From: Hysterangium stoloniferum
Lineage: Eukaryota; Basidiomycota; Agaricomycetes; Hysterangiales; Hysterangiaceae
Assembly (NCBI GenBank): GCA_015178975.1
Contig: WHVD01000104.1
Coordinates: 241,764 to 305,763, forward strand
DNA: 64,000 nucleotides
Reading direction: 5' to 3'
Each line of letters opens with the position of its first letter. Within the stretch, counting starts at the first letter, position 1. Below the pieces are notes generated by a model that was not told where the DNA came from, made no database searches, and saw only the letters and a list, made by a program, of their open reading frames with translations. The translations under genes were made by a program, and so were the position numbers. This document shows positions 31,806 through 59,333 of the stretch, piece by piece.

Positions 31806-32115
31806 TGTTAAAAATTGCAACTAATATTATCTCAGTCTCGTATTAGGGTATAACAGACTGATGTATATACCTAATATTATCTAATACAGACTGTCAATAC
31901 GACAATAAGGAATATTATCTAAAGCAAACTCACCTCAGTCTCGTATTAGGGTATAACGGACTGAGGTGTAAATGACATGGCCATATAGTTTAAATACCAT
32001 GCAATGAATATGTGGAACAAAGGGACGACGTGTCCTTTTGTGTATCTTTGATCGCATGTTCTAAAAATAGATGCCGATTGTCGAATCCGTTGTTCGTGGT
32101 GTATACATTCCAACA
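31806..32115 (-). repeat. copia-1 3' LTR
   Basis: 310 bp, starting on the minus strand with TGTTGGAATG and ending TTAACA. It contains two copies of a motif built as an inverted repeat. The better one has 10-bp arms CACCTCAGTC (31931-31940) and GACTGAGGTG (31959-31968). Confidence 0.95.
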
Positions 32116-32195
32116 CTCCTCCTCAGCAAGAACAAATGTTAATGGTCTCCTCCTTAGCGAAAACAACGTGTGCTCCTCCTTGCATGGAAATCGAG

Positions 32196-33861
32196 TTAGA
32201 TGAGACCAAGGAAGGGGCGAAGACAGGAAAATTTTGAGGTGTCTAGGGCCTTTGTGAAGATATCAGCGAGGTTATCTTTGGTGTTGACATAGTTTAAGGT
32301 AAAGTCTCCCGCTAAGACACGCTCCCTAAGAAAATAATATTTGATATCGATGTGTTTGACCCGATAATGTAAGAGTGGGTCCTCGGAAAGTGCAATGGCG
32401 GCATTGTTGTCACAAAGGAGAGTTGTAGGAGCCGAGGGAGGAAAATGGAGGCCTGTAAAATAATGTGCGAAGCTAACTGCCTTCCTTGGCAGCCTCAAAT
32501 GCAGCAACATATTCAGCCTCACAGGAGGACACTGCAACTGTTTTTTGTTTTCTAGAAGTCCAAGAAATAACACTGGAACCCAAGGTGAAGGCATAACATA
32601 ACCACTTATGCTGCGATGAGTGTCGAGACAATCGGAGTCGGTGTACCCTAGCAGGTTGATTGCATTGGTACCTCCCAGGTGTAAACGAAGTCTTCGGGTG
32701 CCTTTTAAATAACGAACAACATGAATGGCGGCGTGCCAGTGAGGCATGGAATAACAGTCAAGATATTGAGAGAGTTGTTGGACGGCATAGGAAATATTGG
32801 GACGGGTTGAGATGGCTAGATAAAGTAGACAACCCACTAGAGATCTGTAGGGAAGTTTCAACAGAGCATCGAGTTCAGCGGTGGAAGAAGTTGCACGATT
32901 GCTGCATCGAAGCTTTGAATTATAGTCCATGGGTGTGGGTGCAATGGAAGCATTGGTTTGGCCGAATTGTCGAATAATCTTGTCAATAAGGGCAATTTGG
33001 GATAAATAAACAGATTTGTTGGGACAGTCCCACTCGACAGCAATACCAACTACAAAACGCACATTCCCAAGGTCAGAGATAGTCCAGACTTTGCTCATCT
33101 GTTCCTTGAAAAGCTTATTTTCTGTGGGAGAACTTGCAATGGAGAGAAAATTGTCAACATGAACAGCCGCTATTATGATCCCAGTAGAAGTTTTGCGGTA
33201 ATTGATGCATGATTCACAGTCAAGTCTTGTAAAAACCCCAGGAGAGCATTTGTTCATTCATTGTTTGATTCCATATGCATCCACTCTGTTTCATGCCATA
33301 AATACCGTGCATTAAAATCCATACCCAATCCTCTTTGCCAGGCTCTTCAAAACTGGTTGGTTGTTCCATATACTGCGTCTCATTCTCGGGCAGTATACCA
33401 TATAGGAATGCTGTCTTGATATCGATCTGCTGAGCATCCCATCCTAGGATAGCAGCAATATGTAGCAAGATCCTCCAAGGTTCCATGCATGCTGTTGGTG
33501 AGCTTGTTTTGTTATAATCTTTGCCATAGATTTGTTCAAAACCTTTGAAAACCAGGTGTACTTTCCATCAGGTCACCTTGCCTGTCTCATCCCGTTTAAT
33601 TCAAAAGACAGGTCGACCTTTGCGTATCTTACAGCCTTGTGAGACATCAGATCGGGGGACTAACTTGTAGACCCCCATGGCTTTGAGGGAAGCAAGTTCA
33701 TCGAGATAACCCTTTTTCCAATGAGCTGCATCGGCAGAGTTGAGGGCTTCCTCCCAAGACTTGGGTTTGTCATTACATGTTAGGGGATCAATGCCTGTGA
33801 CTGATTCAATGGTAGTGTCGGCCCCAAGGAGGCCATATTCTTGCAGTAACATGGACAACAC
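32196..33861 (-). pseudogene. copia-1 reverse transcriptase and RNase H
   Basis: Frames at 33601-33861, 33220-33486 and 32196-33257 make up the copia-type reverse transcriptase and RNase H. Seen are QQIDIKTAFLYG (first catalytic Asp), YGMKQSG.IW, and the catalytic turn VHVDNFLSI. Most copia elements, and copia-2 here, have VHVDD, so one catalytic Asp is replaced by Asn. RNase H shows LGYTDSDC, a damaged middle part and the C-terminal KHIDIKYYFLRE...ADIFTKAL. At least two frameshifts occur. Confidence 0.85.
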
Positions 33862-34154
33862 ATGATCAATATCCTCGTTATTGGGTGGATCATGGGATGT
33901 GTTTGACTGTGATTGGTGGAGTTAATGTAGGGTATGCAGACGTTGTTGCTTTGCGAGATGTAAATGTTCCGCACTTTCTTGAGAGGCTAGGATAGCACGT
34001 TGAAGGTGTGAGCCTGGTTCAATATGTCTTTCTGCGATACAATCAGAACGATGAACAGGTGCTTCAGGATTTGGTTGGTTATTGATTAAAGGGGGGCCGT
34101 CATTTTGTGGTGCAGGTGCCACTGGATGATTTATACTGGGTGGTATAGATGGTG

Positions 34155-35516
34155 CTATAATACTATCATCGAGAGGGTTCGGAATGACGATGTTATTTGG
34201 TGTAGATAAGGTAGAGGTGATTGGGAAAAAGGTACTGGCAGGTCTTGGTGTGTACACATTGATTGTGGATGGGGGTGTCCCTCATGGCTTTCCAAAAAAT
34301 GTATGTGATATGAACTGTATATTTGATGAGTTTTGGGGTTGTAACATCGGTATGATTTTGACTTCACATCATTACCAACCAAAATACATTCAATTGAACA
34401 TTTGAAGATTTTTGGATTAGATTGGTTTTGGATGAGTACGAAAGCTTTGCATCCAATTTCCCTCATATAGGAGTAATCAGGAATGCGGCCATACCAAAGC
34501 TCCCAAGGAGTTTTGCCATTAAGAGAGTTGGTGGTCGTCTTAACATGAAGATGAGCCGCAGTTAGGTAGAGTTCATCCCATAAGTATGTTGGTAAATTAG
34601 CGTATATACGCATTGATCGAGCTTTTCCCATTGATCGAGCTTTTCCCATTGATCGAGCTTTTCCCATTGATCAAGCTTTTCCCATTGATCGAGCTTTTCC
34701 CATTGAACGAGCTTTTCCCATAAGGGTTCTATGCATACATTCCACTCGTCCAATGTGGGCTGATGTGTATGGTGCTGTAAATTGTTGTTCAGTTCCTCTG
34801 GATGATAGCCAATTCGACATTTCGCAGCTTTTAAGTTTGCTGTTATCAGTGTGGTATATTCCGACTTTCAGCCCTGTTTCAACTTCCCTAGCTTGCTCCC
34901 ATATCCGAAGCTGAGGAAAGGCATCACTTTTAGCTTTCAATAATATAGTCCAAAGAAAATTTGTATAGTCGTCAACTATATTCATGACGTAGTTATTTCC
35001 AGTTCGTGAAGTTATAGCCTGTGGTCCTGAGAGATCTATCCAAACTTTTTGTAATCTCCTTGTCACCTTATGCCCCAACCCACTTTCACATATTTTTGGA
35101 ACTGAAGATTTTGTCTGTTTTCCAAGATGCATGAATCACATTTCCAGGGAGCTGAAGTGGGGGAGGACTGCACACCTTTTAGGAGACCACTTTTGAATGT
35201 CGTTAATAGATTTATAGTTCGCATGTCCAAGGTGGCGGTGCCAAGTATCGAGGGTAGGCATATTTTGAGTGATGAGTGCATGCTCTGTGAGTGTGGAGTG
35301 GAGAGATAGCATGTAGAGATATTTGTGGGGGAGTAATGAGCCACGAGCTATTATAGCATTAGATGATTTTGTACTGAGCCAACATGATTGATCATCAAAG
35401 TGTGCGATGATATTGGAATCTCGGGTTAAGCAACGAACTGATATGAGACACACTGTGGCATCTGGTATGTAGAGCATGTCTCGGAGTATGATGGATGTTC
35501 CATGGCCTATACACAT
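34155..35516 (-). pseudogene. copia-1 integrase
   Basis: The pre-integrase segment (LDTWHRHLGHANY), then CDSCILGKQTK, the catalytic core WIDLSGP and YHTDNSKL with the two Asp, and GRVECMHRTLMGKA with the Glu. After the Glu the hexapeptide MGKARS is tandemly expanded by an 18-bp repeat, one unit of which contains a TGA. The C-terminal part continues with TPWELWYGRIPDYSYMREIGCKAF. Frame breaks occur near 35140 and in the repeat. Confidence 0.8.
34611..34718. repeat. 18-bp minisatellite, six copies, in copia-1 integrase
   Basis: Six tandem copies of CATTGATCGAGCTTTTCC with single-base variants in units 4 and 6. On the minus strand the unit encodes Met-Gly-Lys-Ala-Arg-Ser. Copia-2 has a single copy of the equivalent MGKAQT at about 40800. 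Confidence 0.95.
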
Positions 35517-35566
35517 TTTGATGTCACCAATACCAATGGCCCAGATAAGAGAATTCCCTAATCCCC

Positions 35567-36871
35567 TTACAGAACGAGGGTAATGGCTCTTAAAGTGAAA
35601 AAATCAGTTTGATCTGGTGATATGTGTATGGTGGCACCAGTGTCCAGCCAGACGGGATAGATTTCGGTGGAAATTGGGGTACATTTCGATTGTGATAGTG
35701 GTTGAACGGTTGATGTGTTCAATGCTGTAGGATGCGTGTGGCTGTTCTTGGTCCAATCAATGGTAGTCTTCAACTCCTCCTCAAGGACAAGCCAACCTTC
35801 ATACTCGATCTGTTCTAGCACAAGAGGGGAAGACAATGCTCTGTCAGGAGCGGGGGTGACATGTCCCACAAAGTCAGTGGAGGCAGGGTTTGGGGTAGAT
35901 AATTCAGAGGTGTCCATTTGAGCGATGTAAATGCGACCATTGGCCCCTTGGATACGCACAGGAATCTTCATTGTAGGGGTTGATGCTGGAGTAGTGGAGG
36001 TAGATGGAGAATGTATGATCCTTGATGGTTTAGCCCCCCGGCTCTGTTGCCTGGCCAGCTTGGACTTTTCAATAGTTTTGCCCGCCATTCCACCTGGTGC
36101 GATACAGTAGTCAACTGTATGGTGGTGCTTTTTGCAATTGGAACAAATGATTGAAGTGTTGGGTTTGGATAAGGCGGCGAGAGCGATGGAGTCACCCACA
36201 GTGGAATTTTTGTTACTAACTGGGGTCATAAGAGCTTGTTCACTGTCTAAGTAGGAACATAGTTGGGTAGAGGTGAACGGATTGGACTTAGTGGATTGAG
36301 TGATATCGCGGGTGATGATAGAACAGAGATGTTGGAAGTCGGTGCCCAAAGCATTGAGAAGAGCAATGCATTTAAAGAGGTCATGGGAAATTTTTCCCAT
36401 ATCATAGGCACAGTCAATCATAGTGCAGATGGTTTCGGCTGTTGTGGGTAGAGGTGTGCTGCGGGAAAATTGAGCGAGTAGGGCATTTTGCAGTAATTGG
36501 ACCTGTCGGATGGGTCCCTCACTCTTGTGGCGAAGTTGTACAGCATCCCAACAGGCCTTCGCCCCAAGGTCCAGGTCAATGTACTCCCATTCTGAGGCCT
36601 CAAGGGTGGATGCAATAAGAGCTGCAGCGAGGGAGTTATTACTTTCCCAGTTGGCCCGAGCGCGAGGGCAGTCGAGACCTGGCTGAGGGATAAGTCCCTT
36701 GGCATAGCCCTGGAAACCGGTAAGAGTGAGGAATAAAGTGGCAGCACGAAGCCATGGTTGGTAGTTGGACTGGAGTTTGTCTAGCTTCGGTGCAGAGTAA
36801 ACGATGTTGGTGCGGAGTGCTGTGATGGATGGAGCAAGGTCATATGTAGAGGTTGTTATAGAGGAAGCCAT
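35567..36871 (-). pseudogene. copia-1 gag and protease
   Basis: Open frame from the ATG at 36871 (MASSITTSTYDLAPS...) to a stop at 35567. It contains a UBN2-like gag region (ARANWESNNSLAAALI, ACWDAVQLRHKSEG), a CCHC zinc knuckle (CSNCKKHHHTVDYC), and the protease site WLDTGATIHISPD. The frame is lost by about one base near 35575, beyond which RSVRGLGNSLIWAIG continues in another frame. Gag would package the RNA. Confidence 0.8.
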
Positions 36872-36940
36872 GTCAAATGGAGAATGGGATTGCAATTTTT
36901 AATTCGTCACAAGTATAGTCAGCTTATACAGACGAGTCGG

Positions 36941-36951
36941 GGCCCATAACC
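36941..36951 (-). promoter_or_regulatory. copia-1 primer-binding site
   Basis: The minus strand reads GGTTATGGGCC directly after the 5' LTR end TTAACA. This complements the anticodon region of an initiator Met tRNA (GGCCCATAACC), as in Drosophila copia, which primes with a half tRNA. Copia-2 has the same site. Confidence 0.7.
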
Positions 36952-37261
36952 TGTTAAAAATTGCAACTAATATTATCTCAGTCTCGTATTAGGGTATAAC
37001 GGACTGATGTATATACCTAATATTATCTAATACAGACTGTCAATACGACAATAAGGAATATTATCTAAAGGAAACTCACCTCAGTCTCGTATAAGGGTAT
37101 AACGGACTGAGGTGTAAATGACGTGGCCATATAGTTTAAATACCGTGCAATGAATATGTGGAACAAAGGGATGACGTGTCCTTTCGTGTATCTTTGATCG
37201 CGTGTTCTAAAAATAGATGCCGATCGTCAAATCCGTTGTTCGTGGTGTATACATTCCAACA
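36952..37261 (-). repeat. copia-1 5' LTR
   Basis: 310 bp, about 97 percent identical by eye to the LTR at 31806-32115. As the upstream LTR on the minus strand it would hold the promoter. It lies 96 bp beyond the stop codon of the host gene at 37358. Confidence 0.95.
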
Positions 37262-38103: not shown

Positions 38104-38297
38104 TATATTCGGCGTTCTGGTAATGTGATTTACGGGTGAATTTACGATTAATATTTATACTCATTTTCCATGTTTGTACCCATTTTAGAGAAACTGCAGT
38201 TTATGAGTTCAGGCCCCCAGCATGAGGCCTGACAGAACTTGTAGTGAAACAATACAGTACTGTGCCAGTACTGTCCAAGAACAAACGGGGTGGCGGG

Positions 38298-38639
38298 TGG
38301 TGAGGAAGAGAGACACCTCATATACTTCTATATGGATTAGGGACGATCGAATCCGAAATCAGGCAAACGAATATTCCTTTTGCCCCATCACATCCCCTGT
38401 ACTAATCACAGTCACATCGACTGTCACACACATATATATTGGGCGTCAATTATAGCTTTGCCTCAGTACCTTATACTACGAATATACGAGACTGAGGTGA
38501 GCTGTCTATTTATCAAATAGACAATTTCCTTAAATAACCTTGCATGTACTAGAACTACATTCTAGGTACCTATTGTACAGTCCGTTATACTACAAATATA
38601 CAAGACTGAGAACTACATTCTAGGGTATCACTTTTAACA
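38298..38639 (+). repeat. copia-2 5' LTR
   Basis: 342 bp starting TGGTGAGG (a change from TGTTGAGG in the 3' LTR) and ending CTTTTAACA. A 16-bp direct repeat (AGAACTACATTCTAGG at 38551 and 38609) brackets 58 bp that are missing from the 3' LTR. Confidence 0.9.
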
Positions 38640-38650
38640 GGTTATGGGCC
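38640..38650 (+). promoter_or_regulatory. copia-2 primer-binding site
   Basis: GGTTATGGGCC follows the LTR directly and matches copia-1. It complements an internal, anticodon-loop segment of initiator Met tRNA. Confidence 0.7.
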
Positions 38651-43521: not shown

Positions 43522-43749
43522 GTACTGCAGTGAGGAGGAGTGTTGAGGAAGAGAGATACCGCATATACTTCTATATGCATTAGGGATGATCGAATCTGAA
43601 ATCAGGCAAATGAATATTCCTTTTGCCCCCATCACATCCTCTTTACTAATCACAGTCACATCGACTGTCACACACATATATATTGGGCGTCAATTATAGC
43701 TTTGCTTCAGTCCGTTATACTACGAATATATGAGACTGAGGTGAGCTGT

Positions 43750-43877
43750 TGTTAAAAGTGTAGAAAATGAATGGCCAGACTGGGGATTGAACCCAGGGCT
43801 TCTGCATATATAGCAGGGGTGTAAACCATTACACCACCTGACCCTGGGAAGCACTGCTAGCATTACTCAATCTAACA
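43750..43877 (-). mobile_element. 128-bp tRNA-bearing LTR-like element, copy 1, TSD GCTGT
   Basis: Inserted in the 3' LTR of copia-2. The flanks carry a perfect 5-bp duplication GCTGT (43745-43749 and 43878-43882), and the 5' LTR gives the empty site GAGCTGTCTATTT. On the minus strand it reads TGTTAGATTGAG...CACTTTTAACA. It differs from the copy at 59090 at only two positions by eye. TG...CA ends and a 5-bp duplication point to a solo LTR from a very small retrotransposon. Confidence 0.9.
43773..43843 (-). tRNA. tRNA-like gene inside the 128-bp element, copy 1
   Basis: It has the same cloverleaf as described at 59124-59194. The only difference within the tRNA is T instead of C in the D loop, so this copy has GGTTTACACC. 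The anticodon loop is TATATAT. Confidence 0.7.
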
Positions 43878-43963
43878 GCTGTCTATTTATCAAATAGACA
43901 ATTTCCTTAATTAACCTCGCATGTACTAGAACTACATTCTAGGGTATCACTTTTAACAGCGGG

Positions 43964-58641: not shown

Positions 58642-59089
58642 TGAGGACAATTAGCGTCATGGTGTGGGTTGAGGATCACAGTTTCATGAGGACATCTGTT
58701 TCAGAATTTGGTCAAGGAAATAATTGTATTAGATGATGCTTTAACTCTGAGAAGCAATTAAACCTGGCATCTGTCGTAATTATTTCAGTGAGTGTATCGG
58801 ATAGAGACAAATTCTGTGATTATAGAAATGTAAGACCCCGCAAGGTCTAAGATATTTCTGTACCACCAGTAGCTGAATATTTCGTTCATATTTCAAGCAC
58901 ATAAATTCTAATGATATTATCCGATCTTTTCTCCAGTGATTGTGACCCATTCATTCCACGGATATAAACACTCGTAGTATCGCGGCAACGGTGCCGTTCT
59001 AAACATTCCAACAAAGGACTTGATGGAGATATGGGCGGCAGTCAATCCGGGACATTCTCCTTCGAGGAAAGTATTGAGATACCGTAACT
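58642..59089. other. 3' flank of DUF6533-like copy
   Basis: Matches the flank after the copy at 53700-54140 (54140-54660). No gene. Confidence 0.45.
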
Positions 59090-59217
59090 TGTTAGATTGA
59101 GTAATGCTAGCAGTGTTTCCCAGGGTCAGGTGGTGTAATGGTTCACACCCCTGCTATATATGCAGAAGCCCTGGGTTCAATCCCCAGTCTGGCCATTCAT
59201 TTTCTACACTTTTAACA
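59090..59217 (+). mobile_element. 128-bp tRNA-bearing LTR-like element, copy 2, TSD TAACT
   Basis: Runs TGTTAGATTGAG...CACTTTTAACA and is flanked by perfect TAACT duplications (59085-59089 and 59218-59222). It has the same length as the copy at 43750-43877 and is nearly identical to it. Both whole ends are conserved, as expected of a solo LTR. A SINE would have a variable 3' tail and lack TG/CA ends. The 11-base end CACTTTTAACA is shared with the copia-2 LTR. Confidence 0.9.
59124..59194 (+). tRNA. tRNA-like gene within the 128-bp element
   Basis: A full cloverleaf folds by eye: acceptor GGTCAGG with TCTGGCC (two G-T pairs), D stem GTGT/ACAC, anticodon stem with four pairs closing a TATATAT loop, a short variable loop, T stem CTGGG/CCCAG with loop TTCAATC, and A as discriminator base (59195). 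The A box is TGGTGTAATGG and the B box GGTTCAATCC. A TTTT terminator lies at 59200-59203. The anticodon would be TAT (Ile), but position 33 is A instead of the near-universal T, so decoding function is doubtful. Confidence 0.75.
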
Positions 59218-59333
59218 TAACTCACATAGTGCTACCAGTTGAGGTAGCCCTTTGCTTCTCTCTAGTAATTGTTGTACTTGACACATTATTGATGCATATA
59301 TCTCTGGGTGTTTACTGATGTAACAGGGGTGAG
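59218..59333. other. DUF6533-like downstream flank
   Basis: Continuation of the background flank after the 128-bp element. Its last 20 bases resemble 54735-54755. Confidence 0.4.

Follow-up and report, generated by a model that had tools for sequence, protein, structure and literature searches.

The locus raises the question of what a 128-bp unit with a tRNA-like sequence, which occurs twice in the window (the whole stretch of 64,000 nucleotides analysed, G000:C7:241764-305763, in a genome of 111 Mb), represents, and by which means it is transcribed, primed and mobilized. Very probably, it represents an LTR that belongs to a young TRIM of the Helenus type, a non-coding LTR retrotransposon of 128 + 155 + 128 bp that is moved by the machinery of Copia. 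The original prediction had described two copies of equal length with TG...CA ends and differing perfect 5-bp duplications, GCTGT and TAACT, and all of this can be seen in the sequence (Table 1). The two copies are unlike at 2 of 128 positions, both possess TGTTAG...TTAACA termini and each has its own duplication, while an 18-mer at up to three mismatches matches twice in the window versus 0.08 matches expected.

Table 1. Coordinates of the two LTR copies, their internal elements and the Copia element that provides an empty site (window positions)
Feature	Position	Strand	Basis or remark
Solo LTR of TRIM, 128 bp, TGTTAG...TTAACA	59090..59217	+	100% match in genome DNA search
Left target-site duplication TAACT	59085..59089	+	Read from sequence
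Right target-site duplication TAACT	59218..59222	+	Read from sequence
Second solo LTR, in Copia 3' LTR	43750..43877	-	Target-site duplication GCTGT given on + strand
tRNA-like sequence, Ile(TAT), without U33	59124..59195	+	ARAGORN
tRNA-like sequence of second copy, Ile(TAT)	43772..43843	-	ARAGORN, Rfam
A box TGGTGTAATGG	59131..59141	+	By reading, standard motif
B box GGTTCAATCCC	59174..59184	+	By reading, standard motif
First TTTT, possible Pol III terminator	59200..59203	+	By reading
Second TTTT, close to LTR end	59210..59213	+	By reading
3' LTR of + strand Copia (filled site), interrupted by solo LTR	43540..43958	+	Start = alignment start
5' LTR of same Copia, no insertion, empty site GAGCTGTCTATTT	38297..38639	+	Start = alignment start
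Core start of that Copia, GGTTATGGGCC	38640..38650	+	Same 11 bases as TRIM primer site

The anatomy of the family becomes evident on the genome-wide level. A DNA search retrieved at least 40 full-length LTR matches and one partial match (40 scored of 542 candidates), and a 23-mer in the A-box part, with at most one mismatch, has 235 genome matches versus 0 for the reversed control. The 100 listed of these 235 sites form 73 clusters with 48 single sites, 23 pairs and 2 triples; close neighbours among the listed sites have the same orientation and a distance of 281-285 bp in 27/27 cases, exactly 283 bp in 22/27, with 0.1 close pairs expected by chance. As the spacing of the LTRs clusters at 283 bp, the full TRIM consists of an LTR of 128 bp, a core of 155 bp and a second LTR of 128 bp, 411 bp altogether. 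Such direct pairs had been anticipated by the original prediction, and in 30/30 fetched cores the sequence between the LTRs has a primer site as well as a purine-rich stretch. These 30 core loci, taken from the 40 scored, are the best matches to one core, with divergent cores under-represented. Both LTRs are present in 24/30; the LTR pairs are identical in 20/24, all pairs together differing at 5 of 3072 sites, and a perfect 5-bp target-site duplication, no two alike, flanks 19/24 paired elements. Five paired elements are without a matching duplication; in four of them one flank runs into a further core at its start or its end, as in tandem units, and the remaining one (L041) is unexplained. 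The other 6/30 core loci have one side without an in-register LTR within 6 changes. Solo LTRs constitute 16 of the 43 distinct LTRs in the fetched loci, counted if exactly 128 bp long with the full TGTTAGATTGAG start, and perfect, distinct duplications flank 15/16. The TRIM family is recently active. Tandem forms with two cores one 283-bp unit apart were seen at G000:C517:13061-13498 and C16:166061-166498, the latter with three LTR sites at 283-bp steps among the listed 23-mer matches. As an observation on base composition, CpG occurs once in the 283-bp unit versus 8.4 times expected at the window rate (Poisson P 0.002), with one CpG or none also in 7% of 1275 window stretches of 283 bp; in a second comparison the TRIM unit has 1 CpG versus 14.0 expected, while the gag-only core described below (G000:C135:369715-370908) has 62 CpG versus 62.8 expected, and seven other Copia-upstream regions have 0.36-0.86 of expectation.

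The 5' end GGTTATGGGCCCCGCTGT and the 3' end AGCATTAAGGGAGTG are the same in 30/30 fetched cores, with variant cores reading GGTTATGGGCCCTGC (L010) and GGTTATGGGCCCCAC (L018), and the core end AAGGGAGTG, again in 30/30, is purine-rich with one T. A tRNA-Met(CAT) gene of the same genome is, at its nt 26-40, exactly complementary (15/15) to the first 15 nt of the core. The pattern GGGCCCATAACCC has 19 genome matches versus 0 in the control; among the three matches inspected, one is a tRNA-Met(CAT) gene and two are without a tRNA by ARAGORN. From its sequence, the primer tRNA is read as initiator tRNA-Met, and Ty5 and Drosophila Copia are known to prime from a tRNA's anticodon half, as stated in the Helenus account (PMC10886601). 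Self-priming by the element's own tRNA-like part was rejected, as no exact match of at least 5 nt (lengths 20-5) to the reverse-complemented first 20 nt of the core was found; the same is on record for Helenus (PMC10886601).

The tRNA-like part occupies 72 of the 128 bp of the LTR according to ARAGORN, which calls a tRNA-Ile(TAT) in 6/6 full-length LTRs examined (2 in the window and 4 in L004, L010 and L021), so that TRIM LTRs read as tRNA genes affect tRNA annotation. Rfam model RF00005 recognizes the sequence at 43772-43843 with 43.2 bits, the copy at 59124 being under the cut-off in that scan, and the LTR version in L014 with 46.8 bits, where cmscan flags a non-standard pair; at gathering scores Rfam reports nothing but tRNA in the window, L014, L021, L063 and L091. 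The anticodon loop reads TATATAT with an A at the U33 position, while tRNAs carry U33 in the anticodon loop, and the fold energy of the tRNA-like part (z -1.55) is equalled by 18/200 shuffles. A complete cloverleaf with A box, B box and TTTT terminator had been postulated; boxes and TTTT are present as described, but 'complete' was generous in view of the absent U33, the non-standard pair and the unexceptional fold. Elsewhere in the genome, a cluster of tRNA matches, mostly 93-95 nt long, on both strands and with many equal scores, extends over G000:C112:913507-1219099 and may be a further repeated tRNA or a repeat that carries one.

Transcription by RNA polymerase III (Pol III) from the tRNA-like boxes is what we infer for the TRIM; in the accessible part of the published account, Pol III transcription of Helenus equally has the status of a prediction (PMC10886601). 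Four-T runs are located at LTR positions 111 and 121, with both runs in 28, the second alone in 11, the first alone in 4 and neither in 0 of the 43 distinct LTRs, the first TTTT having been removed by T to A at LTR position 113 in 11/43. The core of L014 is without a four-T run, a weak indication, as the chance of this is about half by a rough estimate. TTTT in the 5' LTR should halt many transcripts short of the full-length RNA. Longer T runs are often required for Pol III to stop in fungi, which makes passage through the stops of the 5' LTR plausible.

A sister family allows the parts of the tRNA-like sequence that are preserved to be distinguished. Aligned over 95 columns, the sister tRNA-like sequence in L021, Thr(TGT) by ARAGORN, is 83% alike to the first; near identity is seen in the A box region, in the acceptor, in the T arm, which contains the B box, and in the tail ATTCATTTTCTACA, while the anticodon arm is unlike. 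Preservation of boxes, acceptor/T arm and tail versus change in the anticodon arm fits the maintenance of a promoter function rather than that of a tRNA for translation. The stretch L021:1100-1400 recurs in the genome: 17 rows begin no later than query base 29 and run to base 267 or beyond, and 38 rows are confined to roughly the initial 190-200 bases, which form the LTR part (40 scored of 416 candidates); the repeat copies lie 410-413 bp apart in five cases worked out. The sister primer site, TGGTAGCAACTCCA, can pair over 14 nt with the 3' end, CCA added, of the same tRNA-Met, and a 49-bp core block is 88% alike between the two families. Judged by these similarities, one genome harbours two TRIM families with tRNA-like part and core block in common that would use opposite ends of one primer tRNA. 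Fungal Helenus families have switched primer type several times, according to the accessible part of the account (PMC10886601), and the common core block adds a close pair to these switches described by Kojima 2024. As far as our searches show, such a sister family, akin in its tRNA-like part and core block and matched to the other end of the primer tRNA, is new. After the sister copy in L021 comes an inverted repeat, 29 bp long, of the 5' part of this copy.

The insertion sites of the window copies are of different value. The copy at 43750-43877 has a clean empty site, because the 5' LTR of the same + strand Copia crosses the target uninterrupted, with GCTGT once. For the copy at 59090, the joint is spanned solely by diverged paralogues (71-81%), which is a weak empty site; its flanks recur together with the insertion in three other contigs at 98.4-99.7% identity, and therefore the copy was duplicated along with its surroundings, or both haplotypes are in the assembly.

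The search for a pol-bearing carrier covered 150 RVT_2 places, those scored out of 1270 candidates, with eight upstream regions fetched. The 11 bases of the primer site, GGTTATGGGCC, are present in both window Copia elements and in L083, L084 and L090. Upstream of RVT_2, GGTTATGGGCCCCG occurs in L083, L084 and L090 and in a near form in L087; it was not found in the upstream regions L085, L086 and L088, and the L089 region missed the 5' end, because its content reads like another kind of reverse transcriptase. The TRIM LTR and the core beyond the primer site have no convincing DNA match in the eight fetched regions or the window Copia elements, the best being 14-15 identical bases in L083, L084 and L090 and, in the minus-strand window Copia, an alignment of 28 columns at 86% (E 0.08); in these sequences, no pol-bearing element was found that has more than the primer site in common with the LTR or core of the TRIM. 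Equally, a search for an autonomous element with a tRNA-bearing LTR, by a pattern of the exact LTR/gag-core joint that is blind to other cores, returned solely the fusion described below. In the minus-strand Copia (window 31806-37261), the two LTRs (TGTTGGAATG...TTTTTAACA) are 97% alike and the primer site reads GGTTATGGGCCCCGAC. Two window frames that had been taken for kinase exons matched no Pfam family.

A hint at the carrier, and unusually direct evidence on it, comes from a fusion at C135:369312-371028, in which an LTR2 (120 bp, no tRNA) is followed by a TRIM core (155 bp), a TRIM LTR (128 bp), a gag frame and another LTR2, with GCCAT on each side. With the inserted 283 bp taken out, the element belongs to a family of gag-only Copia elements. 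Among the 20 best gag loci (L063-L082), two full LTR2 copies are present in 19/20, L069 being without a second full LTR. The 18 gag-only elements, the fusion left out, are 1429-1451 bp long, with a perfect target-site duplication in 17/18 (one mismatch in L065) and the primer site GGTTATGGGCCCCGC in 15/18, three having one or more changes in it. The gag protein matches PF14223 at 3.6e-29 with a zinc knuckle slightly under the cut-off, finds 12 matches in a homologue search and is 19-31% alike to frames in 6/8 of the fetched Copia-upstream regions. As the best 30 gag rows, out of 141, have open frames of 285-322 aa, with one stop within the match in 7/30, pol does not follow in frame. Across the family (L064-L082, e.g. 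G000:C213:46178-47026) many gag frames are open and LTR differences are mostly at CpG; an elongation factor 3-like frame is located near the fusion and, this factor being fungal, points to a fungal host. The TRIM and the gag-only family have 19 nt in common at the joint, by reading AACA plus the 15-nt primer site, and both fusion joints lie inside this stretch. The exact joints LTR2/TRIM core and TRIM LTR/gag core each occur once genome-wide, other joint matches, at three mismatches, being read as native joints, and the fusion is therefore a single event (n=1). No earlier report of a fusion between Helenus and a gag-only element was found in titles and abstract starts of the non-subscription literature, and, as far as these searches show, a TRIM unit fused into a gag-only Copia at a common primer site is new.

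Alternative explanations have to be weighed against this. That the unit might be a tRNA-derived SINE moved by a LINE is suggested by its tRNA-like head with A and B boxes, its small size and its many copies, but the ends are fixed as TG...CA without a tail, the 5-bp duplications are constant in size in solo (15/16) and paired (19/24) forms, and the paired forms possess a primer site and a purine-rich end, whereas a SINE would be a single tailed unit with variable duplications and no LTR pairing. The assignment to an LTR rather than a SINE in the original prediction is upheld by these features, and the SINE reading, refuted by the paired forms, is left with a vanishingly small probability. Hardly any probability remains for a MITE or another DNA transposon that acquired a tRNA gene either: the unit is short and its TGTTA/TAACA ends form a 5-bp inverted repeat, yet long inverted termini are absent, and direct LTR pairs, a tRNA-Met primer site and a fusion exactly at this site are not expected of terminal inverted repeats without LTR pairing, so that here, too, the paired forms refute the reading. 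An ordinary TRIM driven by an unseen Pol II promoter, with the tRNA-like part as a dead passenger without a role, is improbable, if clearly less so than the former two. The use of Pol III is deduced from sequence and TTTT in the 5' LTR would impede its read-through; against a dead passenger speak the 72 of 128 bp that the tRNA-like portion takes up, the diverged sister, which largely keeps A box, B box and tail and not the anticodon arm, and, weakly, the L014 core mentioned above. The TRIM reading itself rests on the mostly identical LTR pairs, the primer site and purine-rich stretch, the target-site duplications and the empty site, together with the large number of near-identical copies and the single fusion with a gag-only Copia.

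The fusion, on the other hand, can be read in two ways. It might have been made after integration, with a TRIM circle recombining into a resident gag-only element at the 19-nt stretch, instead of through strand transfer from one co-packaged template to another, a course of events to which, in its post-integration form, we assign a substantial probability below an even chance. A duplication around the outer LTRs is equally compatible with an older gag-only insertion, and the fusion exceeds the other elements by about one 283-bp unit. However, the outer LTRs have just 4 differences, all C/T or G/A at CpG, within the gag-only range of 0-6. In Sabot and Schulman 2007 (PMC1950507), template switching is recognized by a flanking target-site duplication together with outer LTRs that resemble each other, and the fusion displays both.

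Returning to the Helenus-type TRIM, its propagation can be envisaged as follows. Pol III would initiate at the tRNA-like A and B boxes of the 5' LTR, often pass the weak four-T stops of this LTR and terminate at those of the 3' LTR, whereby the tRNA-like region would become the terminal repeat R. Priming would be by an initiator tRNA-Met that has lost its 3' part through a cut near nt 40 and pairs with the 15-nt primer site, and Copia reverse transcriptase and integrase would copy and insert the TRIM inside particles of Copia or gag-only Gag; solo LTRs would be the leftovers of LTR-LTR recombination. Tentatively, and at a level of confidence that remains low, we suggest that the Pol III-driven TRIM rides the particles of the gag-only Copia and obtains its enzymes from a third, complete Copia, with the half-tRNA-iMet primer site as the point where LTRs are swapped between TRIM and carrier cDNAs. 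If true, this would constitute a three-tier chain of dependence and a route by which LTRs with a tRNA promoter could pass between elements.

The strategy of a tRNA within a fungal LTR, presented by the original prediction as if novel, has a precedent, as TRIMs with a tRNA in the LTR, fungal ones included, were named Helenus by Kojima 2024 (PMC10886601), with Pucciniales and three Agaricomycetes as fungal hosts in the accessible part of that work. Set beside the published families by description, the 411-bp family very probably belongs to this known kind. Like Helenus (TRIMp3), it is non-coding, shorter than 1000 bp and has two LTRs (128 + 155 + 128 bp; 24/30 loci), with a tRNA-derived sequence with A and B boxes, identified by reading, in the LTR, a primer site and a polypurine tract at the core ends and a primer site in common with a host Copia element; the 5-bp target-site duplications (19/24 paired, 15/16 solo) are those of fungal Helenus. 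The comparison with plant Cassandra in the original prediction was apt, as this TRIM, too, would have a Pol III promoter within its LTR, there in a 5S rRNA and here, in a fungus, in a tRNA, with no 5S rRNA by Rfam. The nemertean Ajax, as described in the accessible text, is of the TRIMp3 kind and has equal 5-bp duplications, but differs in its partial 5S rRNA origin and tRNA-Leu primer (PMC10886601). The fusion partner resembles the plant gag-only TR-GAG elements in layout, with its 1429-1451 bp, a gag of about 300 aa and no pol in frame, as far as the available part of that source goes (PMC8704663); in contrast to TR-GAG, it is fungal and separate from the TRIM itself. The gag-only fusion and the core block across two primer types go beyond the accessible part of the Helenus account, in which Helenus is known from sequence only and the upkeep of TRIM dependence on an autonomous element is called not known (PMC10886601). 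In comparison, an active family, a primer tRNA gene, an empty site and a fusion would make the use of Pol III and the identity of the carrier testable in one organism.
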